Positions 23,184 through 46,362 of a stretch of 64,000 nt of DNA are shown here, piece by piece. Source of the DNA: Eubacteriales bacterium (GTDB taxonomy: Bacteria; Bacillota; Clostridia; Lachnospirales; Lachnospiraceae). How positions within the stretch are numbered: position 1 is the stretch's first letter; each line of letters starts with the position of its first letter. Location of the stretch: contig JAUNOP010000006.1 of NCBI GenBank assembly GCA_030537135.1, positions 1 to 64,000 of the forward strand, given 5' to 3'. Both the position numbers and the translations under genes were made by a program. The notes beneath the pieces were generated by a model, which did not search any database, was not told where the DNA came from, and saw only the letters and a list, made by a program, of their open reading frames with translations.

Positions 23184-24230
23184 TTATTCCTCTGCATTGG
23201 AAAGCGTCAGCCATTCTCCGCCTTTTGCATCCTGTCTGTATATCTGCAGACGCCCCTCCTTTAGAGCCGCGGCTGCGGCATCTGTATCCTTCACTCCAAG
23301 CACAATCTGAATCACAGAAGAATCCTCCTGCAGTGCTATGTCTGCAAATCTCCCTGCCCTCCAAAGTCTTCCCTTTCGGTCTATTCCAACAGAGCTGCCG
23401 GAGGCTCCCTGGAGCTTTACAATCTCTCTCCAGCTCTCCACAGCGCATTCCCCGTCAATATCAGAGCCTGACGCCTGCACGCTCCCATCCCTGCAAAGCG
23501 CCAGGGAATGATATTCTCCTGCCGCAATATCAATTACCTGGTTCCATTTTGGCACCTGGGTACACTGGTCATCCAGATTACAGCCGACAGATTTCACTGT
23601 TCCATCCTCACACAAGCCTAAAATGTGCTTGTTTCCGAGCGCAATTTTCTTGATTCTGCTCCACTTCCTCGCAGAGCCAAGGCCTTCCTCAAGGTCTCCG
23701 CACACATACACCCTGCCCTTTGCATCCAGAGCTGCCGAGACATCTCCGCGGGCTGCAATCTGTACTACATTCTTCCAGTCAAAAACATCACACTGATTCA
23801 GATTGTTCTTTCCTGCAGACAGAACTCTTCCTCCCCTGTCCAGTCCCAGAACATGAAAGTCTCCGGCAGAAACTGCCACAATTCCTGCCCATTTTCTGGT
23901 CTCGCGCTTTATCTCCTCATTGGAGCCAAGATACTTCACGGTTCCGTCTGACCTTACAAACACAGAAAAATCCATTCCAAAGGTTCCAAGACAGGAAGCC
24001 TCCTTTTCTATGCGGCCTTTGTACTCCCTCTCTTTTCTCTGCTCTTCTGCTTTTCTCTCTAATATTTCTTTTTTTCTGAGCCATTCCCTCTGGCAGGGCT
24101 TTACAACCTGCTCCAGCCATTCCTTATACTGCTTTTCCGAGAGAAAGCTGGGTATCTTCATGTCAAATCCACACTGTGCACACATCTCTCCCTTTTGTGC
24201 GATTTCTGCTTCACATACAATACATTTCAT
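23184..24230 (-). CDS. Zinc-ribbon plus RCC1-repeat (beta-propeller) protein
   Basis: 348 residues. Residues 1-22 form a zinc ribbon (CIVCEAE..., CAQCGF). Residues ~25-85 are a charged helix. From about residue 90 there are RCC1-type repeats, each with a 'G..H...L..DG.V...G.N...Q' pattern, for example VSAGDFHVLGLDRGGRVLSAG and IAAGEYHSLALCRDGSV. Bacterial RCC1 propellers are usually binding surfaces. No enzyme motif is seen. Last gene of the 13-gene run, 56 bp after the AAA/protease gene, so it may act as a recognition or adaptor subunit (inference). Confidence 0.75.
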   Translation of the reverse strand: MKCIVCEAEIAQKGEMCAQCGFDMKIPSFLSEKQYKEWLEQVVKPCQREWLRKKEILERKAEEQRKEREYKGRIEKEASCLGTFGMDFSVFVRSDGTVKYLGSNEEIKRETRKWAGIVAVSAGDFHVLGLDRGGRVLSAGKNNLNQCDVFDWKNVVQIAARGDVSAALDAKGRVYVCGDLEEGLGSARKWSRIKKIALGNKHILGLCEDGTVKSVGCNLDDQCTQVPKWNQVIDIAAGEYHSLALCRDGSVQASGSDIDGECAVESWREIVKLQGASGSSVGIDRKGRLWRAGRFADIALQEDSSVIQIVLGVKDTDAAAAALKEGRLQIYRQDAKGGEWLTLSNAEE

Positions 24231-24286
24231 TTTTTATCTCCATCACAGAGAAGCCTGCTTAACCTCTCTCCTGTATTTTCTGCCGC

Positions 24287-27200
24287 TCATGATACACTGC
24301 CCTGCTCTCTGGGTCTTACCATTTCCTCCCAGATATATCTCACCGGCAGAACATAATTGATTTCCTCTGTGAGTCTTTCTCCTGCCTCTGTCTGGGAGCC
24401 GCAGAGGATTCCAATCACAGTACCGTCTGTTTTGGACAATACCGGTCCCCCGGAGCAGCCCCTCTTTGCAGCCATGTCTGTGTTGATTCTCTCCAGGCCA
24501 TTCTTAATCTGAATCGAAGAAATATAGCCCTGGAAAAGACTTGGCCTGAGTTCGTCTGTATTGTCACTGAGCTTTGCTCCAAATGGATACGCCATATGAT
24601 AGATAGGCTCTCCATTTACTGTTGCCTTTTCTCCCGGCCGCATGGGAAGAGACGGATACTGCATTACATCAATTTTCAAAAGAGCAGCGTCCAGCCTCCC
24701 GCTGCTTCTCACAACTCTTGCCTTGTGCCAGCTGATATCTCCGTCAGAACGGCCTGGAATCCGAAGCATAACCTCCACGCTTCTGCAATTCTCCACCACA
24801 TGATTACAGGTAAGGATATATCCATCCGACGTCATTAAAAAGCCGCTTCCAAAGCTGTAGCCCTCTCTTCCCTGTGCATCCTCTGATAATCCTCGGATAA
24901 AGGCAAGTCCGCTCTCCTGCTCCTGAAGATCCCTTTCATAGTTAAACCCTTCCCTTGGAGACGGAAGCGCTGCAAAGGGAAGCCGGTAGTTTTCTTTATC
25001 CTGCTTGTTATCTTCTTCCTTTTCCCTGGAGAGCTGCTCCTCTGCCGGCAGATATTTCCTGTATTTATCTGGAAAATGCTCTGGCGTAAACACCCGGATT
25101 TTGACGCCCTCCTCGTCTGTTTTTATGACAGGAGCCTTTGCCCACTCAATGCGCATCTGCTTCTGAAGGTTTTCTGCCTCACGTCCGTTTGCCCAGCCCT
25201 TTATTCTACTTTTCAGCATGTTCTCAAACACAGGAACCAGAAGTGCCTGAAGCTCCTCTGACAGCCTGAAATTCTTCTGCATACTGATGTTTTCAAAAAT
25301 CCTTGCAAGCTCCTCTGCAGTATAATCCTCAAGCGTGAAAATATTGCCGCTAAACCTGCTGGCAAAGCCAGGATTCGAGTTCAGAAACACATCCATTTCT
25401 CTGGGATAGCCTGCCGCAATCACAGCAAATAAACCGTTCTTGTCAGACATTGCCTCCAGAATCGTGTCAATCGCCTCCTGACCATAATCTCCTCCTGCCT
25501 CGCCCCTGCGCTTTAGCATATAGGCCTCATCAATAAAGAGGACTCCACCCATGGCTCTTTCAATGCACTTTCTGGTTTTCTGCGCAGTTTCTCCTATATA
25601 TTGGCCACATAGATCTGCACGAGTCACCTTGACGCAGTGTCCTCTCTCCAAAAGACCGATTTCCCTGTATACCTCTCCTACCAGCTTTGCCACCGTAGTC
25701 TTTCCTGTTCCAGGATTTCCCTTTAATATCCAATGGAGCGTATTATCCTCCCGCAGATCCTCCATTCCCTCCTGCTTGCTTAAATTTCCAAGGCGCAAAA
25801 GATCCTCCAGCACTGTCTTTACCTGGGCAAAGCCTACCATGCTCTGTATGCGCTCCAAGGCAGTTTCCTGTTTTTTCTCTTTTTGAAGCTTCCCCTTAAG
25901 ATGACCCTGCCATTCCTTTTGAAGGTGCTCCTCTGTGAGAATCCGGTGTATCGTACCGTCCTCGTCCTTATTTATAAGGGGATGTGCAAACCACATTTGC
26001 TGCATACTGCGCAAAACATTTTCTGCCTCTCCGCCGTTTCCCCAGACTCGCTTTTTGGACTCTGCCTTTTTATAATTTGCAAAAAACAAATCCATCTTCT
26101 CATCCAGGGAAGGGGCAAGCTCCATGTACGCCTCCCGGCACTTGAGCGTCAGAATCTGATGAAGCTCAGAGGGAGTATAATCCTCCAGAGTAAAGACCTT
26201 AAAGCGTCTGGAAAGACCGTCGTTGCTTCTCAGGAAATCATCCATGTCGCCTGGGTAGCCTGCCGCAATGACGGCGAATTCTCCGTTGCGGTCAGTCATG
26301 GCCTCTACCAGCTCGCTGATTGCCTCTACGCCATAGCCCCCTCCTGAAGCCTCTCCCTTTGTCAGCGCATAAGCCTCGTCAATAAAGAGAACGCCATCCA
26401 TGGCCTTGTCAATCATTCTCCTGGTCTTTGGAGCAGTTCCTCCCAGATATTCAGAAACCAGATCGCTCCTGGTAACCTTTACTGTGTGTCCCTTGCTCAA
26501 AAGTCCGCACTCTTTATATACCTGTCCCAAAAGACGCGCAATGGTTGTCTTGCCGGTGCCTGGATTTCCCTTTAATACCCAGTGCAGCGTCTCAGGCACC
26601 AGCCTTGCGCCAGAGCCGTCCTCCTGACGGTATCTGGCTGAATTCAGGAGGCTTCGAAGCTCTCTCTTGATTCCCTCATATCCAATCAGTGCATCAATCT
26701 TTTCCATTGCAGAGCGAGTGTCCGGCTCAGGCAGCTTTTCCTTTGTGTATTTTACCAGCTCAGCCGGGATATCCTCTCCTGTAAGCATCCGCTTTGCCTC
26801 CCTTGGCACTGCCTCCCCGTATTGGCCAAAGAGGCGCTCATTGCGCGCGTCCAGGGAATGGGGAATATACTTTTCTCTAACATAGCGCGCGTTTCCAAAA
26901 TCCTTGCTTTTTCCGTGAGCCTGCACGTAGCGGGTCAGCGCGCGCAGGGAATATTCCCTGTACTGGCTGTCAAGCTGATATCCCTCTGCCTCAAGCATTG
27001 TATACAGAATGGAGGCAAGCTCCTGTCCTGTATAATTTTCAAAGAGAATGATCTCGCTGAACCTGTCCTTTAATCCTGTATTAAAGGACAGGAAGCGCTC
27101 CATCTCCTCCTCATAGCCTGCGCAGATCACGCAGAGCCTGTCGTGATTGTTCTCCATAAAGGGAATCAGGTCGCTGATAATCCGTTGTCCGCCTCCAGAA

Positions 27201-29452
27201 TCAAGCAGCTGATAGGCCTCGTCAATAAAGAGAACGCCGTCCAGAGCTCTAGCGGCAAGCTCAGCAAAATTTTTGCCGCTGTTTATCAGATTCACCAGGT
27301 CGCCTGCCGTATATTCAATCAGATGTCCACGCTTTAAAAGACCATGGTTTCGCAGAATCCTTCCCATATATCTGGCAACCGTTGTCTTTCCTGTGCCTGG
27401 ATTTCCGCTGAAAACATAGTGTCCCGGCGCGCTGGTATCTCCCATTACCATGCGCTTTCGGATTTTCTCAATCTGCTCCTTTACATAGGAAAGACCTGTG
27501 AGAGCAGACAGCTCCTCCATCACCTTTTCCCGCATTTTCGCCACAGGCTGAAGATAAGGAAGCATCTCGGACGGCAGGTGCCTCTCCTCCAGAATCTTCC
27601 ATTTCCTGCCGTTTTCCACCTCTGCTTCGTGGTGCCTGTCATTTTCCCAGCCAAGCTCCAAATTTGCAGAGAGCTTCACAGCCTCTCCGGCGTTTCCCCA
27701 GTTTTCTCCTGCAAGGTTCACCCAATTTTCGCAAAAATCATCCAGCTTTGCAGAGAAGGCCTCTGAGAAGCGAAAGCCTCTTTCCTGTACATAGAGCTGT
27801 AGGATTTTTTGCATTTCCTCCGGCGTATAATCCTCTATATGAAGGCAAAGCCGAAAGCGCCTGGCAAGTCCCGGATTTGCATTGATAAATCGATCCATCT
27901 CCTTCTGATAGCCTGCCACTACCAGAATAAACTGACCTGCAAACTCATCCATGGCCTTTACCAGAGTATCAATCGCCTCCTGCCCAAAATCTCTGCTATC
28001 TGAGCCTTCCTCCTTTTTCAGGGAATAAGCCTCGTCCACAAACAGCACACCGCCCAGGGCCTCCATCACTCTTGACCTGGTGAGGATAGCCGTCTGTCCA
28101 ATATACCCGGCCACCAGTCCTGCTCTGTCTGTTTCAACCACATGGCCGCTGGAAAGATAGCCCATTTCAAAATATAGCTGTCCCAGGAGCTTTGCCACCG
28201 TGGTTTTTCCTGTTCCAGGATTGCCGGTCAGAATCACATGCATCATATCCTTTTTGGAAGGAGCCGGCAAATCGGGCTGAAGCCTTGAGGATGTCAGATA
28301 CCGAACCTTTTCCTCACTGCTTGTATGCTTTCCTGCAAATTTTGTCAGCTGCTCCTTGATCTTTTGCATTCCAATCAGTCTGGCAAGCTGCTCTTCTCCT
28401 GTCAGATGCTTTTTCTCTCCAAACAGCTTATAGCAGTTGTCTGCTGTCAAAAGCTCTTCCCTGGAAGCACAGGCAAGCAGCCTGTGATAGAGCTGCTTGA
28501 CCCGAAGAGGCTTCTCGCTCTCGCTCATATATCGCTTTAATTCCAGGGCAATATCCAGAAGCTCCTTTGTTCTGACATGGAGGTTTACACGCTTTCCATC
28601 TGCTCTCAGGTTTGGCGCAAGTCTGAAATAATTCAGCATATTACGCAGCTCCAGGGCATTGGGAGCGCAGATGGAAATCACCTCCGGCATCCTGGATAAA
28701 TCCTGCTCCCTCTGCTGCCGATTCTCCTGGCTCTCCTCCACATTTCGGTTGATTTCCAAAAGCGACAGGAATTTCTGGTCAGAATAAACGAAAACCATGA
28801 TGTTCTGATTTTCCGAGGGCAGCTTCATATAATTGTGAATATTGTGCTGGCGTTCCTGTCCCAGGTCATGAATAAAGTCATTGGCATCATTGATGACAAC
28901 AGCCGTCTTGATGGAAGCGTCCCTCATGCAGGCGTCTATCTGGCGGTAAACCATTTCATTATCCTGCATTCCGCCGTGCAGAGGCCTGTCCGGCTGCCTC
29001 TGCATCTGTATTCCTGAGCTTTCTCCTCTCTCCCAGGCCTCCTTTAAACCCTCTTCCTTTGTTACAGTCAAAGGCTTGTCTTCCTTTTCAGATTTTGGAT
29101 AAGAGAGGGGCTTTTCATCTGGCTCCTTTGCTTTCTTCTTTCCCCATTTTCCTTTTTTCAGCCCAGAGGCCTTTGGCACGGCCTTTTTTTTCTCTTCCTT
29201 TGACGTCTTTGGCTGCTCTGCTCTTCTTCCTCTCAGCGTCAGTTCCATGGATATGTCGTCAAAATAGTAAAGCTTCCAATGTCTGTCATAAAAAATAATG
29301 CGCTCATAACCGTTTCTCTGTAATTCCGCAAACAGCATCCAGTCCAAATCCACGCTCCTTGCGCTGTCTGTATAGAATTCGTCAGCAGTAAGGCCCTGTA
29401 CATAGAAAAAGCGCTGCATTGCATTTTCCGGTGTAAAATAACTTCCGCTCAA
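24287..29452 (-). CDS. Four CbxX-type AAA+ modules fused to a trypsin-like serine protease
   Basis: 1,721 residues. A ~320-residue N-terminal region includes a charged linker (~85-140). Four AAA+ modules of the CbxX/CfqX (SpoVK-like) family follow, each with Walker A GNPGTGKTT (near residues 409, 681, 960 and 1243), Walker B GVLF[IV]DEAY and a following Arg-rich lid. A trypsin/HtrA-like domain ends the protein: His in ILTCNHVVE (~1549), Asp in RLDAALLKI (~1588), Ser in RGCSGGPVL (~1666). The triad is complete. There is no signal peptide or membrane segment, so it is a cytosolic ATP-driven remodeller carrying its own protease. I know of no standard bacterial protein with this layout. Confidence 0.85.
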   Translation of the reverse strand: MSGSYFTPENAMQRFFYVQGLTADEFYTDSARSVDLDWMLFAELQRNGYERIIFYDRHWKLYYFDDISMELTLRGRRAEQPKTSKEEKKKAVPKASGLKKGKWGKKKAKEPDEKPLSYPKSEKEDKPLTVTKEEGLKEAWERGESSGIQMQRQPDRPLHGGMQDNEMVYRQIDACMRDASIKTAVVINDANDFIHDLGQERQHNIHNYMKLPSENQNIMVFVYSDQKFLSLLEINRNVEESQENRQQREQDLSRMPEVISICAPNALELRNMLNYFRLAPNLRADGKRVNLHVRTKELLDIALELKRYMSESEKPLRVKQLYHRLLACASREELLTADNCYKLFGEKKHLTGEEQLARLIGMQKIKEQLTKFAGKHTSSEEKVRYLTSSRLQPDLPAPSKKDMMHVILTGNPGTGKTTVAKLLGQLYFEMGYLSSGHVVETDRAGLVAGYIGQTAILTRSRVMEALGGVLFVDEAYSLKKEEGSDSRDFGQEAIDTLVKAMDEFAGQFILVVAGYQKEMDRFINANPGLARRFRLCLHIEDYTPEEMQKILQLYVQERGFRFSEAFSAKLDDFCENWVNLAGENWGNAGEAVKLSANLELGWENDRHHEAEVENGRKWKILEERHLPSEMLPYLQPVAKMREKVMEELSALTGLSYVKEQIEKIRKRMVMGDTSAPGHYVFSGNPGTGKTTVARYMGRILRNHGLLKRGHLIEYTAGDLVNLINSGKNFAELAARALDGVLFIDEAYQLLDSGGGQRIISDLIPFMENNHDRLCVICAGYEEEMERFLSFNTGLKDRFSEIILFENYTGQELASILYTMLEAEGYQLDSQYREYSLRALTRYVQAHGKSKDFGNARYVREKYIPHSLDARNERLFGQYGEAVPREAKRMLTGEDIPAELVKYTKEKLPEPDTRSAMEKIDALIGYEGIKRELRSLLNSARYRQEDGSGARLVPETLHWVLKGNPGTGKTTIARLLGQVYKECGLLSKGHTVKVTRSDLVSEYLGGTAPKTRRMIDKAMDGVLFIDEAYALTKGEASGGGYGVEAISELVEAMTDRNGEFAVIAAGYPGDMDDFLRSNDGLSRRFKVFTLEDYTPSELHQILTLKCREAYMELAPSLDEKMDLFFANYKKAESKKRVWGNGGEAENVLRSMQQMWFAHPLINKDEDGTIHRILTEEHLQKEWQGHLKGKLQKEKKQETALERIQSMVGFAQVKTVLEDLLRLGNLSKQEGMEDLREDNTLHWILKGNPGTGKTTVAKLVGEVYREIGLLERGHCVKVTRADLCGQYIGETAQKTRKCIERAMGGVLFIDEAYMLKRRGEAGGDYGQEAIDTILEAMSDKNGLFAVIAAGYPREMDVFLNSNPGFASRFSGNIFTLEDYTAEELARIFENISMQKNFRLSEELQALLVPVFENMLKSRIKGWANGREAENLQKQMRIEWAKAPVIKTDEEGVKIRVFTPEHFPDKYRKYLPAEEQLSREKEEDNKQDKENYRLPFAALPSPREGFNYERDLQEQESGLAFIRGLSEDAQGREGYSFGSGFLMTSDGYILTCNHVVENCRSVEVMLRIPGRSDGDISWHKARVVRSSGRLDAALLKIDVMQYPSLPMRPGEKATVNGEPIYHMAYPFGAKLSDNTDELRPSLFQGYISSIQIKNGLERINTDMAAKRGCSGGPVLSKTDGTVIGILCGSQTEAGERLTEEINYVLPVRYIWEEMVRPREQGSVS

Positions 29453-29497
29453 TTTCTCCTCCTGTCAGCAGAGAGGCGCCCCTGCCCTGCTTTTGCT

Positions 29498-31069
29498 TTA
29501 TTGTCTCACAGTCCTGCCTACCTGCGGCATTTTAAGTCCCTCTCTGGATGCTCTGGCCGTTTCCCTTCCTGCTTCTACGTCATGAATATTTCCGACTCTT
29601 TCCACCTCTTTTGCGGTTCGCTCTCCATATTTCTGGGAGCAGGGGAAGCCTCCCTCTATGAGTCCTTCCTTTACAAGCTGACTTTGAATCACGCGATTGA
29701 TTCTGTCTCTTGTAACCGGGTTATTGTCTGCATTTCCAATAATCAGCTCCACATGATTGGCATCAATGCCGTCTGGTCCTGTCACTGGCGTAATCACAAC
29801 CGCTGCCTGGTCCCCTGTGACCGGATTCTGAAAAATGGCATGATATTCTTCTCTGTTTTCCTGTGCAAAATAATTACCGTCTCCATCTATCATCTGATAG
29901 TTTTCCCCAAGAAGCGCTCCTATCTTCTCTGTAAGAGTATAGCGGTTCACAGCCATGGTAAAATTTGTGTGAGAAGCATTCTCTACCTGCAGCACCTCCT
30001 GTGAAAGTCCAAGCAGAGCATTCACCTGCTCCTGAAGGTACTCTGTGGTTCTGCTCTCCAGATTTCTCAGCTTTTCTCTTCTGAAATCCGCAATACGCTC
30101 CTTTACAAGGGTGAACTGACCTCTTGTCCAGTAGTCCATTCCATTATCATCCTCAAGCTCTTCTCCGTCCAGCTCAAGCTCATAAATCCGGTTTTCTCCT
30201 CTCTGAAGCATTTCTGTGAGCTGAAGCTCTCTCTCCTTCAGAGCATTAAACCAGAAATTCCACTCTATCTCCTCCTGAAGCACAGTCTCCTTCAGATCCA
30301 TAGCATCATAGAAGGCCTCGCGCCCTCCGTCTGCGGAAGAACTCAGACGCCCTGCTGCCAAGTCCTCCTCTGCTATTCGGATTTTTTCACGCAGCCTTGC
30401 CAGCTCCCTTGGTGCAAAGAGCTGCGGGCGATAATTGTCAAGGATTTCATTCAGGATTCTGTTTGCCTGCTCTGTCCAGTACACAGCCAGTTCCCTCTCT
30501 CCGTCCTCCTTTGCGCGGATAGACTCCATGAGATTTTCAAGCTTAGAATCCACTGCGGCAAGCTTTGCATCCAGCTGCTCTTTCACATGTCCTAAGCTTC
30601 TCTGAAACTGTACCCTCTGCTCGGCAAGCTTTCGGTCTGTCTCCTTTTCCATATGCTGGAAGCCCTCCTGCATCTGTACTCTGGTTGCCGCAATAGCATC
30701 TCCAAGCCTCTGCTGCTGCGCCTGAAAATCCCGGCTCATATTTCGAAGCTGCTCTGCGTGTGCAGACTGCATCTGGGAAAGCTTCTGATTCTGGATTCGC
30801 TCTCTCTCCTTCATCTGCGCGTCAAGCTGCGAAATCCTGTGACTCTGCGCTGCCATTCCGGCGCTTGCCTCCCGAAGCCTGTGGTCTGCCTGGCGCAGCT
30901 TTTCCTGCAGGCTGCGGTTTGCCTCTGCCTGCTGCTTTCTGGTTTTTTCAAGCTCCCTCTGAAGAGCCTGGTTTTCTTTTTTGGAGCTGTTTCCCCGGCT
31001 TTCCAGATAACGAACCCTCTCTCTTAACTGACGAATCTGTCTCTGCTCCGCTGTTTCCCAATTACTCAT
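29498..31069 (-). CDS. Long coiled-coil protein, unknown function
   Basis: 523 residues. Residues ~5-190 are a continuous Gln/Arg/Glu-rich coiled coil (QIRQLRERVRYLESRG on). Residues ~195-350 are mixed helical. Residues ~370-480 look like a compact alpha/beta domain (ITPVTGPDGIDANHVELIIG). No known catalytic motif. No signal peptide. It lies 45 bp before the AAA/protease gene in the same run and could be a scaffold or substrate adaptor. I do not recognise the C-terminal domain. Confidence 0.65.
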   Translation of the reverse strand: MSNWETAEQRQIRQLRERVRYLESRGNSSKKENQALQRELEKTRKQQAEANRSLQEKLRQADHRLREASAGMAAQSHRISQLDAQMKERERIQNQKLSQMQSAHAEQLRNMSRDFQAQQQRLGDAIAATRVQMQEGFQHMEKETDRKLAEQRVQFQRSLGHVKEQLDAKLAAVDSKLENLMESIRAKEDGERELAVYWTEQANRILNEILDNYRPQLFAPRELARLREKIRIAEEDLAAGRLSSSADGGREAFYDAMDLKETVLQEEIEWNFWFNALKERELQLTEMLQRGENRIYELELDGEELEDDNGMDYWTRGQFTLVKERIADFRREKLRNLESRTTEYLQEQVNALLGLSQEVLQVENASHTNFTMAVNRYTLTEKIGALLGENYQMIDGDGNYFAQENREEYHAIFQNPVTGDQAAVVITPVTGPDGIDANHVELIIGNADNNPVTRDRINRVIQSQLVKEGLIEGGFPCSQKYGERTAKEVERVGNIHDVEAGRETARASREGLKMPQVGRTVRQ

Positions 31070-31102
31070 AGCTGTTTTCTCCTCTTCTTTTCCCCGGCAG
31101 GT

Positions 31103-31693
31103 CTACCAGTGGATTTTCTTCATACGGTCAAGCATTTCCTTTGATGGTATTCCCACCATTCTGATTTTGTCCTCGTGAACAAAGAGCTCCACATAGGCGT
31201 CCCGGGTTCCATAATCCAGCGCTTCCTTTTGATATCGGTCTGTAAGTGCAAGCGCCCTCTGGTTGGATGAGCCGCGAAGATTTTTTCCATCATTTCGCTC
31301 CTCCACATAAGCTCCGTCCACAAGAAGATCGCACAGAGCCAGCAGGCGTTCGATGTATTCTGAATGCTGAGCCTTCAGTTCCTCCAGAGTATTTCCGGTA
31401 TAGATAATGACTCCCATGTCCCTTTTCTTCCTGACCCTCGTAAGCATGTCAGAGAGCGCCTCTGCCTGCAAAAAGGGTTCTCCCCCGCTTATGGTAATCC
31501 CATCGCAGCCAGAGTTCAGGATTTCCTCTGCAAGCTCATCCGTGTCCCTGTCATAGCCCTCCTCCATATTCCAGGTGTCTGGAGAAATACAGCCAGGGCA
31601 TCTGCGCAGACACCCCTGCACCCACACGGCAAAGCGGTGCCCGGATCCAAGCGCCGTCACCTGCGCCTCTGTTCCGTGAATCCTGAGCTTCAT
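31103..31693 (-). CDS. NrdG-like radical SAM activase
   Basis: 196 residues from the ATG at 31693 (AGGTGACAGGA upstream). The radical SAM motif is CLRRCPGC (about residue 27). SGGEPFLQAEAL and the C-terminal LLVDGAYVEERNDGKNLRGSSNQR stretch closely match anaerobic ribonucleotide-reductase activating proteins. No nrdD or other glycyl-radical enzyme gene is in the window. Its place inside a chaperone/AAA run, 33 bp before a coiled-coil gene, suggests a different client, possibly a protein of this cluster. That is inference; it could also be a displaced nrdG. Confidence 0.85.
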   Translation of the reverse strand: MKLRIHGTEAQVTALGSGHRFAVWVQGCLRRCPGCISPDTWNMEEGYDRDTDELAEEILNSGCDGITISGGEPFLQAEALSDMLTRVRKKRDMGVIIYTGNTLEELKAQHSEYIERLLALCDLLVDGAYVEERNDGKNLRGSSNQRALALTDRYQKEALDYGTRDAYVELFVHEDKIRMVGIPSKEMLDRMKKIHW

Positions 31694-31797
31694 TCCTGTC
31701 ACCTGCCTTCCTGTGAATTCTTTTATGTACATTTGCTTTATGTCATGCCTGCTTTTCAGGCTTTATTTCGTTATTCCAAGTACAGCAATCCATCACT

Positions 31798-32805: not shown

Positions 32806-32833
32806 GAATCCTCCTTTTTTCAGCAAAAAACCA

Positions 32834-34396: not shown

Positions 34397-34419
34397 AATC
34401 CTATCCTCCACTGTCAGAT

Positions 34420-37345: not shown

Positions 37346-37428
37346 CTTTTTTATCCTCTTTTCTTGTCTCAACTCAAGCTCAGTCATTTAGCAGTGTGCG
37401 ACATGTAAAAGCATCTGCCTGAGCTTGT

Positions 37429-38955: not shown

Positions 38956-39160
38956 TTTTCTCTCCCGTACCAATCGTTTTCTCTTTTTGCCGCCTTCTTC
39001 CCCAACGGACATGTCTGCTTAAGTACTATATACCATGTATAGAAGTCGATTGCTCTGTGTCTGCATCTACGCTGCGGTCATTGCGCTGCCTGCTCATACC
39101 GGTCCGCCATTCCAATGTCCGAGCATCTATAGATGCAGGCCTGCCCCCAGTCCGTAGCTT
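38956..39160. other. Spacer inside the Hsp70 run, small palindromes
   Basis: 205 bp, the longest gap in the 13-gene run. Holds a perfect GCATCTATAGATGC palindrome near 39122 and a CGGACATGTCTG palindrome near 39004. No gene and no clear promoter were seen; an internal promoter is possible. Confidence 0.4.
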
Positions 39161-40669
39161 TTACCGTATATGGCTCTCTATTTCCAGCCTTCTGGATACC
39201 CTGCGCCCTGTAAGGGAATCCACGGCTGCTATTTCCAGGATATTGTCCCTGCTCAGAGTGAGGGTCTGCACAGACTCCGTTCCTGCCGGGACTGCCTCAT
39301 CCCGCCGTATCTTGACAGACAGAATCTCCTCTCCTCTGGATAGGTCAGCTACCTTCTCCTCCCTAGTGCAGTCTGATTCAAATACAGTAAACTGACTGTA
39401 CCTGCCCTGTGCTGAGGTTTTTGAGGTTCTCTGCACAGACACAGGAAGCTCATCTCCGCTGTAAATAAGGTTGAAAATTTTGGAATTCCCCTCTTCGTCC
39501 AGATATTCGATTCCATAAGTATGTGTTGCCTTGAGCCTTACAGGACTTACAAGCTGCTCAAGCATTTTGGCATATCTTGCCGCCCCATAGGATATGGCAA
39601 GCTCAGGATTTGCCATCTGCACCCTGCACTCTGGAAAGGCCTCCCTTACAGCCTCCTGAATCTGCGGCATATAGGAGCCTCCTCCCACCAGTATCACATC
39701 TGCTATCGGATGCTTCTTGTGTTTTTTTCTTAAGCGTGATGCCATGCGGATAGTCTGCTGCTTCAGATCCTCTGTTATAGTGTCGAATTCCTGCCTGGTC
39801 ACCTGAATGTCATAATAGCTTCCCTGCAGAGGAATGCTTGCTTCTGTCTCTTCTAATTCGCTTAATTCCTCCTTGATTCTCCTTGCCTCTGTAAGCAGGG
39901 CATGATGGTTAGCCTGAAGGAGAGCCTCTCTTCGCTCCCCTGAAAGTTCTGTCATTTCTGCCCTGAGCTTCTCCTCCATTAATTGCAGGAGCCTTCTGTC
40001 CCAGTCGTTTCCTCCAATGCCCTTTCCGTCCTGTCCAATCACAATATACGGCTCCTTTGGGTTATCCACTGCCTGAACAATCGCCGTGTCAAAGGTTCCT
40101 CCTCCCAAATCATAGACCAGAATGCTTTTATCATCAGCCGCCGAAAGCCCCAGATACTCCACGGCAGCTGCAACCGGCTCTGCAATAACTGCAATAACTT
40201 TGACCTTGCGGCCGGATTCCAGAACAATGCCCTGCGCTGCGTCGCGAATCATCTTTTTTCTGGGCTCGCTGAACTTTACCGGCACTGTAATCACAATCTC
40301 AAGGGGCTTGTCTGAATTCTCATCTGCCTCCTGGCTGTGAAACTCCTCCCGCAGAGACTGCTCGGCTCCGGCAATCAAGTACCGCAGAATCTCCCGCACA
40401 ATCTCCTCTGGCTCATATTCCCTGTCATCCAATACAAAAAAAGGCTCCTCCAGCTTTTTCTTGACAGCTTCCACCACAAACTGCGGATAAAGTGCGCCTG
40501 CTAAGGCGGCTCTGCTTCCTGTCAGCGTTCTTTTCCTGTCATGAAAAAAAACGGACGGAACTCTCCGCACATTCCGCTCCTCTCTGGGCACGAGCGCCAT
40601 TACCCTGTCCCCGTTTATAAAGCCTGCCGAAGAATAGCAGGTTCCAAAGTCAACACCTATTACAGCCAT
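39161..40669 (-). CDS. Hsp70-family protein (tandem paralogue 1)
   Basis: 502 residues. Motifs: VIGVDFGTCYSSAGFINGD, with Cys replacing the second Thr of the usual DFGTT loop; ITVPVKFSEP; VYDLGGGTFDTAI (~186); ILVGGGSYMPQIQ (~326); NPELAISYGAARYA. It is the most diverged of the three tandem copies. The Cys in the phosphate-1 loop occurs in some eukaryotic-type Hsp70s and need not abolish ATPase activity. The C-terminal part is beta-rich and short. It lies 25 bp after the TPR-like gene. Confidence 0.87.
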   Translation of the reverse strand: MAVIGVDFGTCYSSAGFINGDRVMALVPREERNVRRVPSVFFHDRKRTLTGSRAALAGALYPQFVVEAVKKKLEEPFFVLDDREYEPEEIVREILRYLIAGAEQSLREEFHSQEADENSDKPLEIVITVPVKFSEPRKKMIRDAAQGIVLESGRKVKVIAVIAEPVAAAVEYLGLSAADDKSILVYDLGGGTFDTAIVQAVDNPKEPYIVIGQDGKGIGGNDWDRRLLQLMEEKLRAEMTELSGERREALLQANHHALLTEARRIKEELSELEETEASIPLQGSYYDIQVTRQEFDTITEDLKQQTIRMASRLRKKHKKHPIADVILVGGGSYMPQIQEAVREAFPECRVQMANPELAISYGAARYAKMLEQLVSPVRLKATHTYGIEYLDEEGNSKIFNLIYSGDELPVSVQRTSKTSAQGRYSQFTVFESDCTREEKVADLSRGEEILSVKIRRDEAVPAGTESVQTLTLSRDNILEIAAVDSLTGRRVSRRLEIESHIR

Positions 40670-40694: not shown

Positions 40695-41477
40695 CTATGC
40701 CCCTGTATTCCTCTGATACTCCTTTGTGAGCCTTTCCAGGGTTTCTTCCACCTGGCCGTCCTTTACGGCTGCTTTGGGAAGTCTTCCAAGTTCTGTGCGC
40801 ACAGCCTGGATTTCCTGCCTGGTTCTCGCATCCACGCCCAGCTCCTTAAGCTTTCGCACATATTCCTCCTCTTCATACACCTCTGAGAAGGTCAGAAGAT
40901 AGCTCTTGAGGGTATTCTTTGTGTGAAGCTGCTGGTAGGCCTTTTCAAAGCATTCCAGCGCTCTTTCCTTCTGAAAAAGATAACTGTAGGTACACCCCAT
41001 GTTATACCACACAACGCCTGTGAAGCCTTCTCTCATTCTGGAGACGTCCTCTCTCTCCAAAACGCTCCTGTAGATTCCAAGAGCCCGGACATACATCCCA
41101 TTCTCCACCAGGCTGTCTCCCTTTCTCTTTTCCCTCACGGTCACAGGCTCCTTGGCAAGCCTTTGAAGTCTTGCAGAGAGGGTCTTAAGTTCCTCGTAAT
41201 TCAGATAATTGATCTCTTTAAAAACAGGATACACGAATTCATCGATTCCTCCTGCCTTTTCCCAGATGGCGCGCAGCCTTCCTGAAAGACCGGAAAGCCC
41301 CAATTCCTCCCTGATCCACTCGCAAAGCTGCTCGTTCATAATCGTCTCGTCAATCAGATAAAGATTGTGGCAAAAATAATAACAAAGCTCTTCAATGGAA
41401 TAAATATTGGTACTGATGTTTTCAATAAAATATGGGTTTTCTGCCTGTTTTACCTGACATAAAATAAAGCCGCTCAT
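40695..41477 (-). CDS. TPR-like helical protein of the DUF5716/5717 cluster
   Basis: 260 residues from the ATG at 41477 (TAGGAGGCAGTACAT). The N-terminus (MSGFILCQVKQAENPYFIEN) is a conserved-looking signature I associate with proteins beside DUF5716/5717 in Lachnospiraceae. Around residues 120-190 there are two TPR-like helix pairs (YNMGCTYSYLFQKERALECF). A charged helical C-terminus follows. It could be the co-chaperone-like bridge between the large DUF proteins and the Hsp70s. No enzymatic motif. Confidence 0.7.
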   Translation of the reverse strand: MSGFILCQVKQAENPYFIENISTNIYSIEELCYYFCHNLYLIDETIMNEQLCEWIREELGLSGLSGRLRAIWEKAGGIDEFVYPVFKEINYLNYEELKTLSARLQRLAKEPVTVREKRKGDSLVENGMYVRALGIYRSVLEREDVSRMREGFTGVVWYNMGCTYSYLFQKERALECFEKAYQQLHTKNTLKSYLLTFSEVYEEEEYVRKLKELGVDARTRQEIQAVRTELGRLPKAAVKDGQVEETLERLTKEYQRNTGA

Positions 41478-41489: not shown

Positions 41490-42737
41490 CTACCATTCCA
41501 TGGATTCCTTCCAGACCTTTCCGCTGGATGGAAACATTTCTCCAAAGCCCAAGTCACGCACCATGATATCGCACTGCTTTGGAGAACGGTAAACCAGGCT
41601 CACCCTGAGTCTGGTGGTGCGGTTCGGTCTCTCCGGGATTCCAGGAAGAAGCATGCCGACACGCTTTTTATTTTTCTCTCCCATCTGATTTATCAGAAAG
41701 ACCAGCTCCTCTGTATCATCCAGTATTAAATCATACTCTGCACTGCACTCATACCAGTTATGCCCCGCCTCAATCAGCGAATAATAGGCAGGAGAGCCCA
41801 TAACGGTCATCTCCATCCCCACATTGACTGTAACTAACGATTCGCTCAGATACAAATAGCCCTTAAGCGATTTCTTTTCCAGACGCTCTCTGCCCGCCTC
41901 ACACGCGCCTTTTGCAAAAAGGTTGTTTCCTGCAAAAACCTTTCTGTGATTTCTGCACAGAGCCTTTATCGATTTGTTTGCCCACTGCGTGTCAAAGCCG
42001 TCTCCTGTAATCTGAACGCTGGAATATAAATCCGTTCTCAGCGTCTGCTGGACAAACTGGCAAAAGGCGGCGTCCTTATCCTCTTCTCCCAAAGGAAGCT
42101 CCAGAAAAAGCGGATCCTCCAGTCTCACCAGAACCGGCTTTGTCTTGATATTCATAGAGAGTCTCCGAAAGGTCGCCCTGTCTCCCTGAAAATCATACCA
42201 GCCCACATATCTGTTCCAGGTCTCCTTTTTCTGGGCCAGCGCATAATAATAGAAGCATTCCCCATAATCCAGAATCTGAAGCTGCGCCTTGCGGAATTTC
42301 AGTTTTTCACAGGCAGACTGCAGGTTCTTTACCAGATTTTTATTAAGAGAGGAAACAGCAATGCTCAGGCACTTGATGTTTTTGACAGGATCTGCCATTC
42401 CCAAAAACTTAAGAAGGTGTCTGAAATATTCTGCCAGAAGCTCGGAGGGCTCTATCATCTCATCCTCCACAGCCACAGGAGCATCCATTTCACAGATTTC
42501 ATAAAGATTTTCAATCAAAAAATCTCCCTTTTCTCGGGCAAAATACTCTGCCTCCACTCCTATGCAGAAATCCTTTTGGGCAATCCGCCTGCACAGACAG
42601 GTGGGGATTTCATATTGGCTGCTGCCTACCTTCATGGAAATAGACAGAACCTCATCTGCTTTTCTATTGTAATAGCATATCTGAGAGTTCTCTCTTCCAA
42701 AGTCTATGCCAAGTAAAATGTCTCGAATTTCATTCAT
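41490..42737 (-). CDS. DUF5716-like protein with a degenerate actin/Hsp70 fold
   Basis: 415 residues. The start LLGIDFGRENSQICYYNRK has the shape of an Hsp70 phosphate-1 loop, but Thr residues are replaced. A connect-1-like LSIAVSSLNKN is near residue 130. The phosphate-2 position reads GWYDFQGDRATF instead of DLGGGT, and the adenosine position reads ITGDGFDTQWANKSI. The overall spacing fits an actin-fold protein that has lost nucleotide-binding residues. The DUF5716 assignment is from memory of Lachnospiraceae annotations. It lies 12 bp before the TPR-like gene. Confidence 0.65.
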   Translation of the reverse strand: MNEIRDILLGIDFGRENSQICYYNRKADEVLSISMKVGSSQYEIPTCLCRRIAQKDFCIGVEAEYFAREKGDFLIENLYEICEMDAPVAVEDEMIEPSELLAEYFRHLLKFLGMADPVKNIKCLSIAVSSLNKNLVKNLQSACEKLKFRKAQLQILDYGECFYYYALAQKKETWNRYVGWYDFQGDRATFRRLSMNIKTKPVLVRLEDPLFLELPLGEEDKDAAFCQFVQQTLRTDLYSSVQITGDGFDTQWANKSIKALCRNHRKVFAGNNLFAKGACEAGRERLEKKSLKGYLYLSESLVTVNVGMEMTVMGSPAYYSLIEAGHNWYECSAEYDLILDDTEELVFLINQMGEKNKKRVGMLLPGIPERPNRTTRLRVSLVYRSPKQCDIMVRDLGFGEMFPSSGKVWKESMEW

Positions 42738-42819: not shown

Positions 42820-45800
42820 TTATGGTTCCTTCTCTATTGTATATACATGCTTCACCCAGCGCTCTCTGTCAAGATAATCCGTAAGGAGACTTTTTGCCTG
42901 CTGTATCTGTGCATTTCTCCAGTTATACAGAATCTTGTTCAAAAGCTGAAATCTGCTCTGATTCTCCTCTTGCACCTTATCCATGATAATGACAGCCTCT
43001 GGAGTCTTTTGTTTATTTTCCCTGTCCTCCACTGTAAAATAGTATCTGAGACTCTCTCCATAAAACATCGTAAAGGTTCTTACAAAAAAGCCCTCATACA
43101 TATTTTTCACAGGCTCTGTTTTCCATTCCAGCTCTGTACCAAAGCCAGAATCCAGTGCATAGTGCAGCACAACCCGGCTCCTGGGATTCCCCCGATATTC
43201 TGCGCACTGCTTATCCTCAAGCCGACACATACTCAGCATTTCAAGAGGAAGTCTCGCAAAAAAGGAAAAATACAGCCTCTTGTCTTCGCATTCTGCCAGA
43301 ATTTCTCCTGCCAGACGTTTTTCCTTTTGTGTGAGCTTGTCCTTTTCAGAGAGCCGCTTCAAATAATTGAGCCTGCAGACAGCATCCATTTCCCAGTGTC
43401 TCTCACAGGCAGTTTCCAGACATTTTTCCAGAAGCTCTCCCTGCATCATTCCATGGACAAACTCCCCATAGGAAACAAAGGTCAGATATGCCAGAATCAC
43501 AGACTCCTTGCCAGTCTGATGCACATAGCTCTGAAAAACATCTTCTCCCTCAAGCCTGTAATCCCAGGTAAACATCAGTGTTTGCAGAATTCGCTCTTCC
43601 AGGTCAAAGGTATCCAGATGAAAGCTTCTCACGCTCTTCCACAGCCTCAAAAGAAAATCTACATCTCCTTTTTTGAATTTCATGAGGTAAATAAGAAGAA
43701 CATCGTCATATTTTCCCTGCTCATAAATCTGGCTTGCCAAAGCCACAAGCCCCTCGTCCTCCTCCATCTCCTTCTTGAGAATCAGGCGGCTTGTCATTTT
43801 GAGCAAAGTCTCCGGCTCCACATGCTCGCAGCCGCCCTCTTCAATCACCTCATAGGCAGCGTCATAAAAGCCGGACGCAATCAAAAGCTCCAAAAGCTCT
43901 TTTCGGTTCACTGCCGCAAAGGCATGATAGTCCATTTCCTTTAAAGCCTTTTCTGTCTGATCCTCTCCAATATGAGAAGCATAATAGGTTAAAAGCTCTC
44001 TCCGGATTTTTTTTCTATAGTCGCTGGAAAAATCAGAAAGCCTTGACAAAATCCCAAAGAAATCCAGACTATCAGAGGAAAGCTTTTGTTTTTCACATTC
44101 ATATAAAAGAAGGCCGGCCTGGAAGGCTCCAAGATGAAGACAGCTTTCCGCCACATCCGCCTCATCAAAAAGCTTTTTTCTATTATAGTCCACAGTTGCC
44201 GCGTACCTTCTCTGCCTGCTGTCCTGGAACAGAATCACTCCGTCTTTGGTATAAATTCTGGGATAAGCGATTCCCCGAACGCAGGGATAAGCCTCCTCCT
44301 GATTCATCTGCGGATGCCGCACCACAATGCTTCTCACCTTTGGGTCATCACAATATATCCGATAGGTAAACAGCATTCTGCCTATCCTTGCCGCTTCCTC
44401 CAAGGTCTGGGGATTCATGGCAAACTCCTGGTACAAAACCGCATAATCCTCATTGATTTTTTCTTTTTCCAGCATCTGCGCGGTAAATTTCTTCATGCCA
44501 TCCAGGTAATCCTCGTAAATTTTTGGCGCGGTTTCCTTATGCAGAACAATATTGGCAAAGAGATAGGCTCTTCTGTCATCTCCAAGAGAGCGGTTGTTAT
44601 AGGCAAAATACAAAAGCAAAGTTCTCGGAAGCTCTCTCTGATAAGAGATATCTATCGTCTCCATATAGTATTCATACAGCCTTGTAATACGCAGTCCCTT
44701 CTCTATTGCCAGGGCAAACCAGCGGAAAAATCTGGGATTTCTGGGATTTCCCTTCATAATATATTTACACACTGCCTCCAGAGTATCATTGTTCGGAAAG
44801 GCTTCATATGCAGCCGCAAGCGCCTGAAACAAGCTTCCTGAAAAATGCTTCTCATAACCTGCGAGATAAGCGATTCTCATGCTGATCTCCTCTGTAAGAA
44901 GTCCCTCCTTGCCAGCATACAGAAATACCTGCGTCCAAAGGCCTCCCACTCTGCGCAGGAGGGCGATATTTTCAGCAATCACATTCCAGGCTTCCAGGTA
45001 CAGAAGCGGACTGCGGCAGCCTCTCTCATACTGCTCTTCAAAAGCAAACAGCTTTTTCTGGGGCGAGGTCTGAAATTCATCCTCAAGCTGTGACCAGAGC
45101 CAGAACAAAAGAAAGCTGTCCTCCTTCTGAAGATACAGAGAGTGAAGCTTTCTGGCTGTCTGATAGGAATCTCCCGAAAGACCGGTGCAATAGCAAAGGT
45201 ATACATAGGCTCCTGCTGCCTCAAGGTCTCTCCTTGCAAAGGAACTGCCCTTGAATCTCTTCAGAATCCCCACAGCCTCCTCTGTCTTCTCCTCCTGGTA
45301 GAGAACATAGGCTTCATAGAGCTGATACTTCGCATAATTGCGGCCTGTGCTTTTAAGCCCCTCCAGAAGGCTTCCTGTATGGGAAACCCAGCTTTTATAA
45401 TCCATCTTATGGGTGCGCAGAGCCATATAATCCTTCATAAATTCTGCCAGATACCTTTTCTCTGCCAACCCTTCCTGAATCTGAATTTTTTTGTCCCTGG
45501 AAGCTGCCACAGTATACACAAGCTCCTGATAGGGTGTGCGCAGACGAATATATCCGTACTTTCTTCCTCTTCCCAGGACATTTTTCAAAATCACATAGTT
45601 CAGACGGCACACGCTGCCAATAAATTCGTCCTCCCGAATGGTCTTCTTTGGCACACTCAGAAAATCTCCCTGTACCTCCACCTCGATTTCCAGATAGCCC
45701 CAGCCGGTTCTGCGCAGCTCCAGGTACTCCTGTGTTGATTCCTGAAGCTCATAATATTCTGCCGTATCTTCTCTCAGGCTGAGACGCACCTGCTCCTTTG

Positions 45801-46362
45801 CTCCGATTCCTATCAGGTATTCCTCCAAATGCTGGTAGATCACCGGATTGCGCGCAATTCCCTGATAAAGAGCATATCTCCTGCTCCTGTCCTCCTTAAG
45901 AACATAGGAGAAGGCCTCTGGATTTTTAAAAATATGAAAGGCTTCTCTGAAATTGGTGCGGGCCAGAGCAAGAAACTCGTCCATAGAAGTAATTTCTCCC
46001 ACTGAGCTTCTTACCTGCTCCTTTTCCAGCTCCACATAAAAGGGAATTTTCTTTTCTCCAATACTGGTAATCAGAGTAAGGCTTCCCTCCACAGCTTCTC
46101 CTGGCTCCAGGCCTGACATGTCCACGCCAAAAGCAATGACAGCTTCTTCACCGGAAAATCTCTCCTTGTTCACCAGAATCCTTCTATGGCTGCTGGAAAT
46201 ATAGCCCCGCAGCTTTCTCTTGTCAGAGGCTCTCACAGACAGCTCTCCCTGGAAATTCCGCCCCTTTTTCACAGTCTCACGGACAGCCTCTCTGGATACC
46301 TCAACCGTGGGATGCATGTATTCAAATTTTCCATTTATCAATTGTTCTAATCTTCTTTTCAA
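42820..46362 (-). CDS. DUF5717-like giant protein, first gene of the cluster
   Basis: 1,180 residues. Residues ~1-115 look like a beta-rich N-terminal domain (LINGKFEYMHPTVEVSREAV; RGYISSSHRRILVNKERFSG; YGVD-like FGVDMSGLEPGEAVEG). From ~120 to ~1000 the protein is almost entirely helical with repeat-like pairs, resembling a TPR/alpha-solenoid. The last ~150 residues are beta-rich (YYFTVEDRENKQKTPEAVII). No catalytic motif, signal peptide or membrane segment. I recall the same N-terminal pattern in DUF5717 proteins. It probably serves as a large scaffold or recognition solenoid. Confidence 0.7.
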   Translation of the reverse strand: MKRRLEQLINGKFEYMHPTVEVSREAVRETVKKGRNFQGELSVRASDKRKLRGYISSSHRRILVNKERFSGEEAVIAFGVDMSGLEPGEAVEGSLTLITSIGEKKIPFYVELEKEQVRSSVGEITSMDEFLALARTNFREAFHIFKNPEAFSYVLKEDRSRRYALYQGIARNPVIYQHLEEYLIGIGAKEQVRLSLREDTAEYYELQESTQEYLELRRTGWGYLEIEVEVQGDFLSVPKKTIREDEFIGSVCRLNYVILKNVLGRGRKYGYIRLRTPYQELVYTVAASRDKKIQIQEGLAEKRYLAEFMKDYMALRTHKMDYKSWVSHTGSLLEGLKSTGRNYAKYQLYEAYVLYQEEKTEEAVGILKRFKGSSFARRDLEAAGAYVYLCYCTGLSGDSYQTARKLHSLYLQKEDSFLLFWLWSQLEDEFQTSPQKKLFAFEEQYERGCRSPLLYLEAWNVIAENIALLRRVGGLWTQVFLYAGKEGLLTEEISMRIAYLAGYEKHFSGSLFQALAAAYEAFPNNDTLEAVCKYIMKGNPRNPRFFRWFALAIEKGLRITRLYEYYMETIDISYQRELPRTLLLYFAYNNRSLGDDRRAYLFANIVLHKETAPKIYEDYLDGMKKFTAQMLEKEKINEDYAVLYQEFAMNPQTLEEAARIGRMLFTYRIYCDDPKVRSIVVRHPQMNQEEAYPCVRGIAYPRIYTKDGVILFQDSRQRRYAATVDYNRKKLFDEADVAESCLHLGAFQAGLLLYECEKQKLSSDSLDFFGILSRLSDFSSDYRKKIRRELLTYYASHIGEDQTEKALKEMDYHAFAAVNRKELLELLIASGFYDAAYEVIEEGGCEHVEPETLLKMTSRLILKKEMEEDEGLVALASQIYEQGKYDDVLLIYLMKFKKGDVDFLLRLWKSVRSFHLDTFDLEERILQTLMFTWDYRLEGEDVFQSYVHQTGKESVILAYLTFVSYGEFVHGMMQGELLEKCLETACERHWEMDAVCRLNYLKRLSEKDKLTQKEKRLAGEILAECEDKRLYFSFFARLPLEMLSMCRLEDKQCAEYRGNPRSRVVLHYALDSGFGTELEWKTEPVKNMYEGFFVRTFTMFYGESLRYYFTVEDRENKQKTPEAVIIMDKVQEENQSRFQLLNKILYNWRNAQIQQAKSLLTDYLDRERWVKHVYTIEKEP

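Follow-up and report, generated by a model that had tools for sequence, protein, structure and literature searches.

A recurring Hsp70, radical SAM and AAA gene cassette beside a family-core DUF5717-DUF5716 operon in a Lachnospiraceae genome, with a possible role in biological conflict

The window analysed here is a stretch of 64,000 nucleotides from a member of the Lachnospiraceae (Eubacteriales bacterium, GenBank assembly GCA_030537135.1, contig JAUNOP010000006.1, positions 1 to 64,000), in which thirteen minus-strand open reading frames (ORFs) occupy positions 23184-46362. Judged by gene order and domain profiles, this run is two units: a trio encoding DUF5717, DUF5716 and a tetratricopeptide repeat (TPR) protein, and a cassette of ten genes at 23184-40669 encoding Hsp70s, coiled-coil proteins, a radical S-adenosylmethionine (SAM) enzyme, a tandem AAA protein and a zinc-ribbon protein. 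We favour, with moderate confidence, the reading that the ten genes form a mobile, chaperone-driven conflict (defence) cassette with interchangeable nucleoside triphosphatase (NTPase) front ends. The core set lies in the same order on a cyanobacterial plasmid, which suggests that the ten-gene cassette is a mobile, possibly defence-related system.

Composition of the thirteen-gene run

An earlier annotation made from the letters alone (the sequence-only reading) had described thirteen minus-strand genes with no ordinary gene between them, and the ORFs at 23184-46362 are arranged in this way; the other ORFs listed there lie on the plus strand and overlap them. The intergenic gaps, which it gave as 12-205 bp, measure 7-148 bp. 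Most of its protein assignments stood: Pfam matches four Hsp70s, all in the cassette, the degenerate actin-fold protein is DUF5716, the AAA+ protease has four AAA modules and a Trypsin_2 domain with their motifs, and the NrdG-like radical SAM enzyme, the RCC1 repeats and the TPR protein were matched by Pfam or NCBIfam, the zinc ribbon by motif reading. The genes, all on the minus strand, are as follows.

42820..46362, minus strand: trio gene 1, DUF5717 (N and C parts), 1180 amino acids (Pfam)
41490..42737, minus strand: trio gene 2, DUF5716, degenerate Hsp70/actin-like N-lobe (Pfam; hhalign to Hsp70, P=3.6e-11)
40695..41477, minus strand: trio gene 3, TPR protein (Pfam)
39161..40669, minus strand: cassette Hsp70 'c', judged lidless from its length and its alignment to 'a' (Pfam)
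37429..39012, minus strand: cassette Hsp70 'b', judged lidless from its length and its alignment to 'a' (Pfam)
35828..37387, minus strand: cassette lidless Hsp70 'a' (P0008), 519 amino acids (Pfam; alignment to bacterial DnaK)
34420..35748, minus strand: cassette coiled coil (P0007) with a GrpE-like C-terminus, tentative candidate nucleotide exchange factor (hhalign, P 0.001-0.003)
32834..34411, minus strand: cassette core, divergent Hsp70 'H70d' (Pfam)
31798..32826, minus strand: cassette coiled-coil protein CC5 (counterpart in genome G067, hhalign P=3.6e-4)
31103..31732, minus strand: cassette core, NrdG-like radical SAM enzyme with CLRRCPGC (Pfam/NCBIfam)
29498..31069, minus strand: cassette core, coiled-coil protein CC3 (hhalign to relatives)
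24287..29452, minus strand: cassette core, N-terminal domain, four SpoVK/CbbX-type AAA modules and a trypsin-like protease domain (Pfam, motifs)
23184..24230, minus strand: cassette zinc ribbon and RCC1 propeller, candidate recognition subunit (Pfam; ribbon region against G067, P=2.9e-8)

The cassette recurs as a co-linear unit

By profile comparison and gene order, the Hsp70, AAA, radical SAM, coiled-coil and zinc-ribbon genes are a recurring co-linear unit; the shared order enters this argument without a formal probability. H70d, a coiled coil, radical SAM, CC3 and tandem AAA recur in order, away from the trio, in two genomes, G194 and G067. G194 contains eight of the ten genes in the window's order (H70a, GrpE-like protein, H70d, CC5, radical SAM, CC3, AAA and RCC1), with identities of 51-69% for CC3, the GrpE-like protein, radical SAM, CC5 and AAA, 60% for H70a and 36% for H70d, and no trio gene was found within positions 5000-55647, the stretch searched of its 55,647-base contig. 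G067 encodes H70d, a CC5 counterpart, radical SAM, two CC3-type proteins and AAA, as well as an upstream zinc-ribbon RCC1 gene whose first ~48 residues are shared with the window protein; its cassette lies on contig C13 and its DUF5716 on C5. On the Calothrix plasmid pCAL6303.02, typed as mobilizable, the same order reads H70d, TPR protein, radical SAM, CC3, AAA and zinc ribbon. There H70d scores 123.8 bits, radical SAM 148.4 bits and CC3 59.5 bits, the AAA protein shares the N-terminal domain (P=3.3e-18) and the last protein is a zinc-ribbon coiled coil. The TPR protein has P-loop motifs by reading and no Pfam NTPase model at E 0.01. In plasmid and viral searches, the Calothrix Hsp70 and CC3 matched only their own plasmid (E<=1e-15 and 1e-6).

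A reduced set, comprising radical SAM, one or more CC3-type coiled coils and an AAA protein with the N-terminal domain, is co-linear in six places: the window, G194, G067, the Calothrix plasmid and two further genomes, G112 and G240, in which the AAA N-domain link is weakest (E 1e-6 and 4e-5, respectively). Profile alignment (hhalign) of CC3 to its relatives gave P=5.6e-6 for the G067 pair, 1.9e-5 for G240/G112 and 3.9e-12 for Calothrix, compared with 0.026-0.55 for five unrelated control proteins and 0.02-0.14 for the other cassette coiled coils. By their C-terminal part alone, the CC3-type proteins agree unevenly (P 6.7e-5 to 0.073), and the link to G240/G112 rests on the longer alignment because the C-terminal part alone gives 0.073; the G067 pair against the G240/G112 pair reaches only P=0.0054. 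Counted by Walker A motifs, there are four AAA modules in the window, three in G194 and G240, and two in G067, Calothrix and G112. The comparison shows a recurring backbone of H70d, radical SAM, CC3 and tandem SpoVK-type AAA proteins, accompanied in the Hsp70-bearing copies by a zinc-ribbon protein, and a front end that differs from locus to locus. The sequence-only reading had proposed a dedicated remodelling machine with recognition and scaffold subunits; co-linear recurrence supports this for the ten genes and not for thirteen. The proteolysis it also proposed would hold for the window copy only, the trypsin-like serine motif being absent from the AAA proteins of the five relatives.

A search with the radical SAM enzyme gave 23 matches in 22 of 215 genomes, four of them at >=179 bits (window, G194, G112 and G067). 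Of the 19 weaker loci, eight were read; CC3 was in none of them, and L247 and L249 alone showed the AAA N-domain, each as a weak match. For thirteen viral radical SAM relatives, the surrounding DNA that was examined contained no CC3, H70d or AAA N-domain gene. A second, looser group (G105, G126, G204 and G284) shares H70d-type and AAA genes, with no radical SAM or CC3 match in the stretches read.

Two side observations concern these loci. The G067 cassette also encodes a DUF6734 protein (L119:14585-15532) beside H70d, its gene adjoining that of the zinc-ribbon RCC1 protein and an additional radical SAM gene of larger size. Among the Hsp70-AAA cassettes of the second type (L123-L126), six of ten neighbours in L125 have no Pfam match (E 0.001).

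The cassette is a rare insertion beside the trio

Comparison of loci indicates that the ten-gene cassette (23184-40669) was acquired and lies inserted between the TPR gene and a transporter operon's promoter region. Sites flanking the two units are given below.

46413..46441, minus strand: promoter-like site upstream of DUF5717, 10/12 matches, possible start of a thirteen-gene transcript (consensus match only)
23123..23166, minus strand: 16-bp hairpin after the last cassette gene, terminator-like, without a T run (fold z = -4.65 for a 111-base stretch)
23114..23142, minus strand: promoter-like site of the transporter gene next to the cassette, resembling the sequence before this gene in same-genus loci that lack the cassette (consensus match only)
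20537..23052, minus strand: flanking solute-binding protein, permease and ABC ATPase genes (Pfam)

None of the ten genes was found in 60 family loci around DUF5716, 58 of them with the trio (E<=1e-3; loci reaching up to 14 kb downstream of DUF5716, less at contig ends). Nor was any found at this site in 20 same-genus loci drawn from 31 genomes (phmmer E<=1e-5; four of the 20 stretches are shorter than 18 kb). Twelve of these 20 have the transporter genes after TPR and no cassette, at a distance of 97-356 bp in nine and, in three, across 2.4 kb that contains two further genes; three of the nine have a weak solute-binding match (~100 bits), versus ~390-440 bits in the others. The transporter pair was not found in the remaining eight. 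The transporter promoter-like site, with its shared motif, is retained in the window at the cassette junction, and the cassette therefore appears to lie between the TPR stop and the transporter promoter. The motif around TGGTAGAGTGA, at window positions ~23094-23104 between the promoter-like site and the transporter gene start, is common to most same-genus loci compared (L134-L147) and is a possible leader or operator. No Rfam family matched the window at its gathering score.

Co-transcription of cassette and trio is plausible, given the hairpin downstream of the last cassette gene and the distance of 25 bp between the TPR gene and the start of the cassette; promoter- and terminator-like sites inside the run occur in near-chance numbers. 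The sequence-only reading had taken all thirteen genes as a single system, in which DUF5716, DUF5717 and the TPR protein would act as scaffold. The shared strand, short gaps, strong hairpin after the last gene, chance-level internal terminator-like sites and the Hsp70 relationship of DUF5716 itself would suit such a machine, which we nevertheless consider very improbable: the trio stands without the ten genes in 58 of the 60 family loci, the ten are missing from all 60 and from the 20 same-genus loci, and the G067 and G194 relatives lie away from the trio. This independent occurrence largely refutes a single thirteen-gene system as an ancestral unit, and we rejected the trio as part of the chaperone unit. 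A slightly smaller chance still goes to an assembly artefact, in which the cassette was wrongly joined to the contig. The genome is a 103-contig draft with 91% completeness and the cassette is absent from the 80 other loci read at this site, but the GC content of the cassette (49.0%) is similar to that of its neighbours (46.1% for the trio), the transporter promoter-like site is continuous at the junction, and the close relative in G194 shows the cassette as a real unit.

The distribution of the cassette appears sporadic, in genome samples that hold one genome per genus or species and are partly incomplete. H70d is present in seven of 299 family genomes at E<=1e-20, the window's own included, and in none of the other 298 genomes of the phylum sample (E<=1e-15). 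The AAA N-terminal domain was found in five of the 299 family genomes (three strong, two weak) and the Hsp70/AAA form of the window in three; one same-genus genome, G263, gave neither an H70d nor an AAA N-domain match. The close form of CC3 was found at one other locus of the genome collection, corresponding to G194, a lower bound from a scan with two short peptides. CC3 had no plasmid, phage or viral-contig match, and no viral relative was found for Hsp70 'a', CC3 or the AAA N-domain; phage or plasmid copies of the close form were thus looked for and not supported.

The trio is a family-core operon

On its distribution, the DUF5717-DUF5716-TPR trio is a family-core operon. DUF5716 and the DUF5717 domains score above their curated cut-offs (340, 823 and 291 bits). 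In a sample of 120 family genomes, one per genus and including the window's own, 117 have a single copy of DUF5716; among the remaining three, DUF5717 is present in one and absent from two. DUF5717 was found in all 31 same-genus genomes, own included, and in four of the 299 genomes of the phylum sample, all four within the family (of the 295 without a match, the 20 listed all lie outside it). In the 60 DUF5716 loci (L042-L101), chosen from the 117 genomes by assembly quality, the trio is adjacent in 58, as separate genes in 54 and with DUF5716-TPR fusions in four; the exceptions are a contig end without a TPR match and a locus with DUF5716 only. The sequence-only reading had argued for a lineage-core function rather than a transient island, which agrees with these counts for the trio and not with the sporadic insertion of the ten genes.

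Profile comparison of its N-lobe with Hsp70 (P=3.6e-11) supports DUF5716 as a probable degenerate Hsp70/actin relative, in which only 13 of 59 alignment rows retain the phosphate-1 glycine. A comparison of the TPR family with DUF5716 was set aside, since DUF5716-TPR fusions had entered the TPR alignment. DUF5717 had no match among the plasmids searched and was not found in the open-access literature searched, where DUF5716 appeared in a single paper, off-topic by its title and opening abstract; no function for the trio is described there.

Properties of the cassette proteins

Walker A, Walker B and an arginine-finger-like motif are present in each of the four AAA modules, as are the three catalytic motifs (His/Asp/Ser) in the protease domain. 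With AAA_lid_6 present beside the Walker motifs, we take the modules to be of the SpoVK/CbbX type, a name based on that lid domain. The whole-AAA profile has matches in 274 of 398 phylum genomes at E<=1e-40, and AAA genes of this type are thus widespread. The zinc ribbon of the RCC1 protein is a reading of two CxxC pairs, and the three coiled-coil proteins have no significant Pfam match. Hsp70 'a' has no lid: its alignment to bacterial DnaK runs to residue 512 of its 519 yet goes no further than residue ~505 of DnaK, leaving nothing for one. The ten proteins contain no HPD motif, and there was no J-domain Pfam match among the matches shown.

The GrpE-like assignment of the sequence-only reading is weak. 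The C-terminus of P0007 aligns with GrpE in the right register at P 0.001-0.003, values obtained without matched controls; Pfam gave no GrpE match up to E=10 (E=6.9 at best for the G194 relative) and a PDB search found no GrpE relative. P0007 is therefore only tentatively a GrpE-like exchange factor.

The possibility that this is the sole dnaK locus was ruled out, as hrcA-grpE-dnaK-dnaJ lies on another contig (names from reading the translations, grpE and dnaK also by Pfam). Compared with such an operon, the cassette likewise has the Hsp70 nucleotide-binding domain, the beta substrate-binding part and a candidate GrpE-like factor, and differs in the missing lid of Hsp70 'a', the missing J domain and the number of Hsp70s. 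A stress-proteostasis machine acquired for the niche, in which extra Hsp70s, their own exchange factor and the AAA-protease handle damaged host proteins, would account for the Hsp70s, the weak GrpE match, the AAA unfoldase, a trypsin-like domain with catalytic motifs and the absence of a recognised classical toxin effector. We regard it as unlikely, though well worth keeping in view: the cassette is rare and its relatives lie away from the trio site, one of them on a mobilizable plasmid; no J-domain protein accompanies the lidless Hsp70 'a'; and the protease domain is not conserved, with GTPases or FtsK/HerA-like ATPases replacing the Hsp70s in some relatives.

As a separate observation, contig C35 of the same genome encodes a further divergent Hsp70 of 559 amino acids near the contig end (L128:9888-11567), adjoining proteins of 533 and 451 amino acids without Pfam matches.

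Front ends are exchanged between loci

The two copies in G240 and G112 have no Hsp70 match in the stretches read. A 12.7-kb contig of G240 encodes DO-GTPase2, GAP1-N2/M, radical SAM, three coiled-coil or similar proteins and AAA. In G112, radical SAM, three coiled-coil or similar proteins and AAA are followed by HerA-like and FtsK/SpoIIIE ATPases, the former weakly matched (DUF87 at 21.3 bits, cut-off 23.2; PADLOC mad8 1e-15). The third coiled coils of G240 and G112 (267 and 320 amino acids) gave no sign of relation to each other (P=0.18) or to CC5 (0.12). On pGM01, a plasmid of Geminocystis, at least one DO-GTPase-like gene (45.8 bits) comes after a radical SAM relative (39% identity), and the stretch also has genes annotated as anti-phage dCTP deaminase, dGTPase, DUF1156, and BrnT and HigB toxins; no CC3 or AAA N-domain gene was found there, the downstream coiled coil aligning to CC3 at P 0.007-0.16.

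These partners have counterparts in the literature. DO-GTPase/GAP1 is a published, predicted conflict system, and GAP1-N2 neighbourhoods with HSP70 and GrpE are described in excerpts of the same paper (Kaur et al. 2020, PMC7159879). SpoVK-type, FtsK/EssC-like and HerA-like ATPases appear as add-ons to Hsp70-bearing restriction systems in the excerpts of PMC11090510.

Other radical SAM-AAA arrangements were seen in passing. In G023, a single run (L249:688-11135) encodes a protein kinase, an unknown protein, a zinc-ribbon FHA protein, an NrdG-like radical SAM enzyme, a ClpB-type AAA protein, a PP2C phosphatase, DUF4236 and PglZ, possibly another radical SAM-AAA conflict locus. L246 has radical SAM, AAA, an unknown protein and a PIN protein in one run. 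Actinobacterial and Paenibacillus plasmids (L271, L273 and L274) share a recurring set of an AAA ATPase, a small gene (annotated DUF1257 in Paenibacillus), DUF2997 and an NrdG-like radical SAM gene. On a Treponema succinifaciens plasmid (L275), an NrdG-like radical SAM gene and an AAA gene lie inside a contractile-injection-type gene run.

Relation to described systems

GAP1-N2/DO-GTPase systems, in the excerpts of PMC7159879, resemble the cassette as NTPase assemblies of several genes that include an Hsp70 and a further Hsp70, zinc ribbons, TPRs and a GrpE-type factor, for which the cassette has a tentative counterpart. One theme given there is an Hsp70 with GrpE and a second Hsp70 lacking the peptide-binding domain; the window has four Hsp70s and a GrpE-like match at P 0.001-0.003 only. 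G240 joins the radical SAM-coiled coil-AAA backbone to the DO-GTPase2 and GAP1 of those systems. The window cassette differs in having no DO-GTPase/GAP1 pair and no FNIII or DnaJ match (Pfam, thirteen proteins; best 25 of 47 families for the AAA protein), and in having the tandem SpoVK-type AAA protein, the NrdG-like radical SAM enzyme, CC3 and RCC1. Radical SAM is named in the excerpts only for another group, the FtsH ternary systems.

The extended operons of type III-A CoCoNuT systems (PMC11090510, excerpts) are alike in their Hsp70-like protein, SpoVK-type tandem AAA, coiled coils and zinc ribbon, with FtsK/EssC-like or HerA-like ATPases as alternatives. They differ in that the thirteen window proteins gave no McrC (DUF2357), vWA, HEPN or CARF match (again the best 25 of 47 families for the AAA protein), and 'radical sam' has 0 occurrences in the CoCoNuT paper. 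Because the defining core of neither system was seen in the cassette, we did not file it under either; we infer that it belongs to a broader kind of multi-NTPase conflict cassette. No description of a radical SAM-CC3-AAA cassette was found in the open-access literature searched.

The radical SAM enzyme shares with NrdG the CX3CX2C motif, and NrdG is its best NCBIfam match, at 107.4 bits against a cut-off of 126.1; no NrdD partner was recognised in the cassette. This bears on a third alternative, a maturation machine for a protein complex or for a glycyl-radical or radical-modified enzyme, in which the CbbX-type AAA protein remodels, the NrdG-like enzyme activates and the Hsp70s assemble. The AAA_lid_6 modules and the NrdG likeness favour it, as do related radical SAM and AAA genes in a contractile-injection locus. 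With no glycyl-radical motif in the thirteen proteins (simple pattern) and no constant client gene recognised among the relatives, coiled-coil proteins excepted, we judge it improbable.

Discussion

GrpE resets Hsp70, AAA proteins of the SpoVK/CbbX type assemble into rings that exert a pull on proteins, and radical SAM enzymes, which are oxygen-sensitive, make covalent changes. In the conflict cassette that we favour, the zinc-ribbon RCC1 propeller would recognise a foreign or aberrant protein assembly, CC3 and CC5 would form a scaffold, and the lidless Hsp70s, which have no J-domain partner in the cassette and would be recharged by the GrpE-like factor, would switch the assembly off and on. 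Hsp70 or another NTPase would be the switch in a chain of sensor, scaffold, switch and unfoldase. The AAA ring would unfold the captured protein and, in the window copy only, feed it to the fused trypsin-like domain, while the radical SAM enzyme may modify one cassette protein covalently, licensing its activity. A signalling or binding role fits better than bulk refolding because the cassette has no J-domain gene, the lid is missing and the H70d ATPase motifs have decayed in G194 and partly in Calothrix; binding rather than remodelling has been argued for the Hsp70-like protein CnuD (PMC11090510, excerpts).

Several observations weigh against this reading. First, ten of the thirteen proteins were scanned with PADLOC, with weak or generic matches and no model identifying the cassette, and among ten neighbour genes of relatives there was no match for five from G194 and G067, nor for GAP1 and DO-GTPase of G240 (G112 genes gave generic ATPase matches, and PglZ of L249 its own family). 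Second, the ten genes include no recognised nuclease, pore or toxic effector of another known kind, and the protease domain, the only candidate for such a role, is absent in all five relatives examined. Third, H70d is shortened in G194 and has lost ATPase motifs there, and that of Calothrix has lost one, so that the H70d ATP cycle would be no essential part of the model; the Calothrix TPR protein at the CC5 position has no supported CC5 match (P=0.08). Fourth, GAP1-N2 occurs in one of five genomes searched, G240, and was not found in the window's own genome, G067, G112 or G194. Fifth, no integrase or transposase turned up in a scan of the flanking genes, no search having been aimed at them. 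Lastly, radical SAM and AAA genes alone do not mean defence, because such pairs also lie beside contractile-injection genes.

A broader reading, which we put forward tentatively and think on balance doubtful, is that of an unnamed cross-phylum mobile conflict system. It would combine a constant engine (NrdG-like radical SAM, CC3 scaffold and tandem SpoVK-type AAA) with interchangeable zinc-ribbon sensors and likewise interchangeable NTPase switches, namely a lidless Hsp70 array with a GrpE-like factor, a STAND-like TPR protein, DO-GTPase-GAP1, or FtsK/HerA-like ATPases; the Hsp70s would be immune signal switches rather than folding chaperones, and radical modification would arm the system.

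The trio is kept by nearly every sampled member of one family, and its DUF5717 was found nowhere else in the phylum sample. If the broader reading is true, published conflict systems bearing chaperones, GTPases and FtsK/HerA ATPases would share one exchangeable engine, and the rare Hsp70 form, in its six-gene Calothrix plasmid version, would be a compact, testable unit for Hsp70s and radical chemistry in bacterial immunity.

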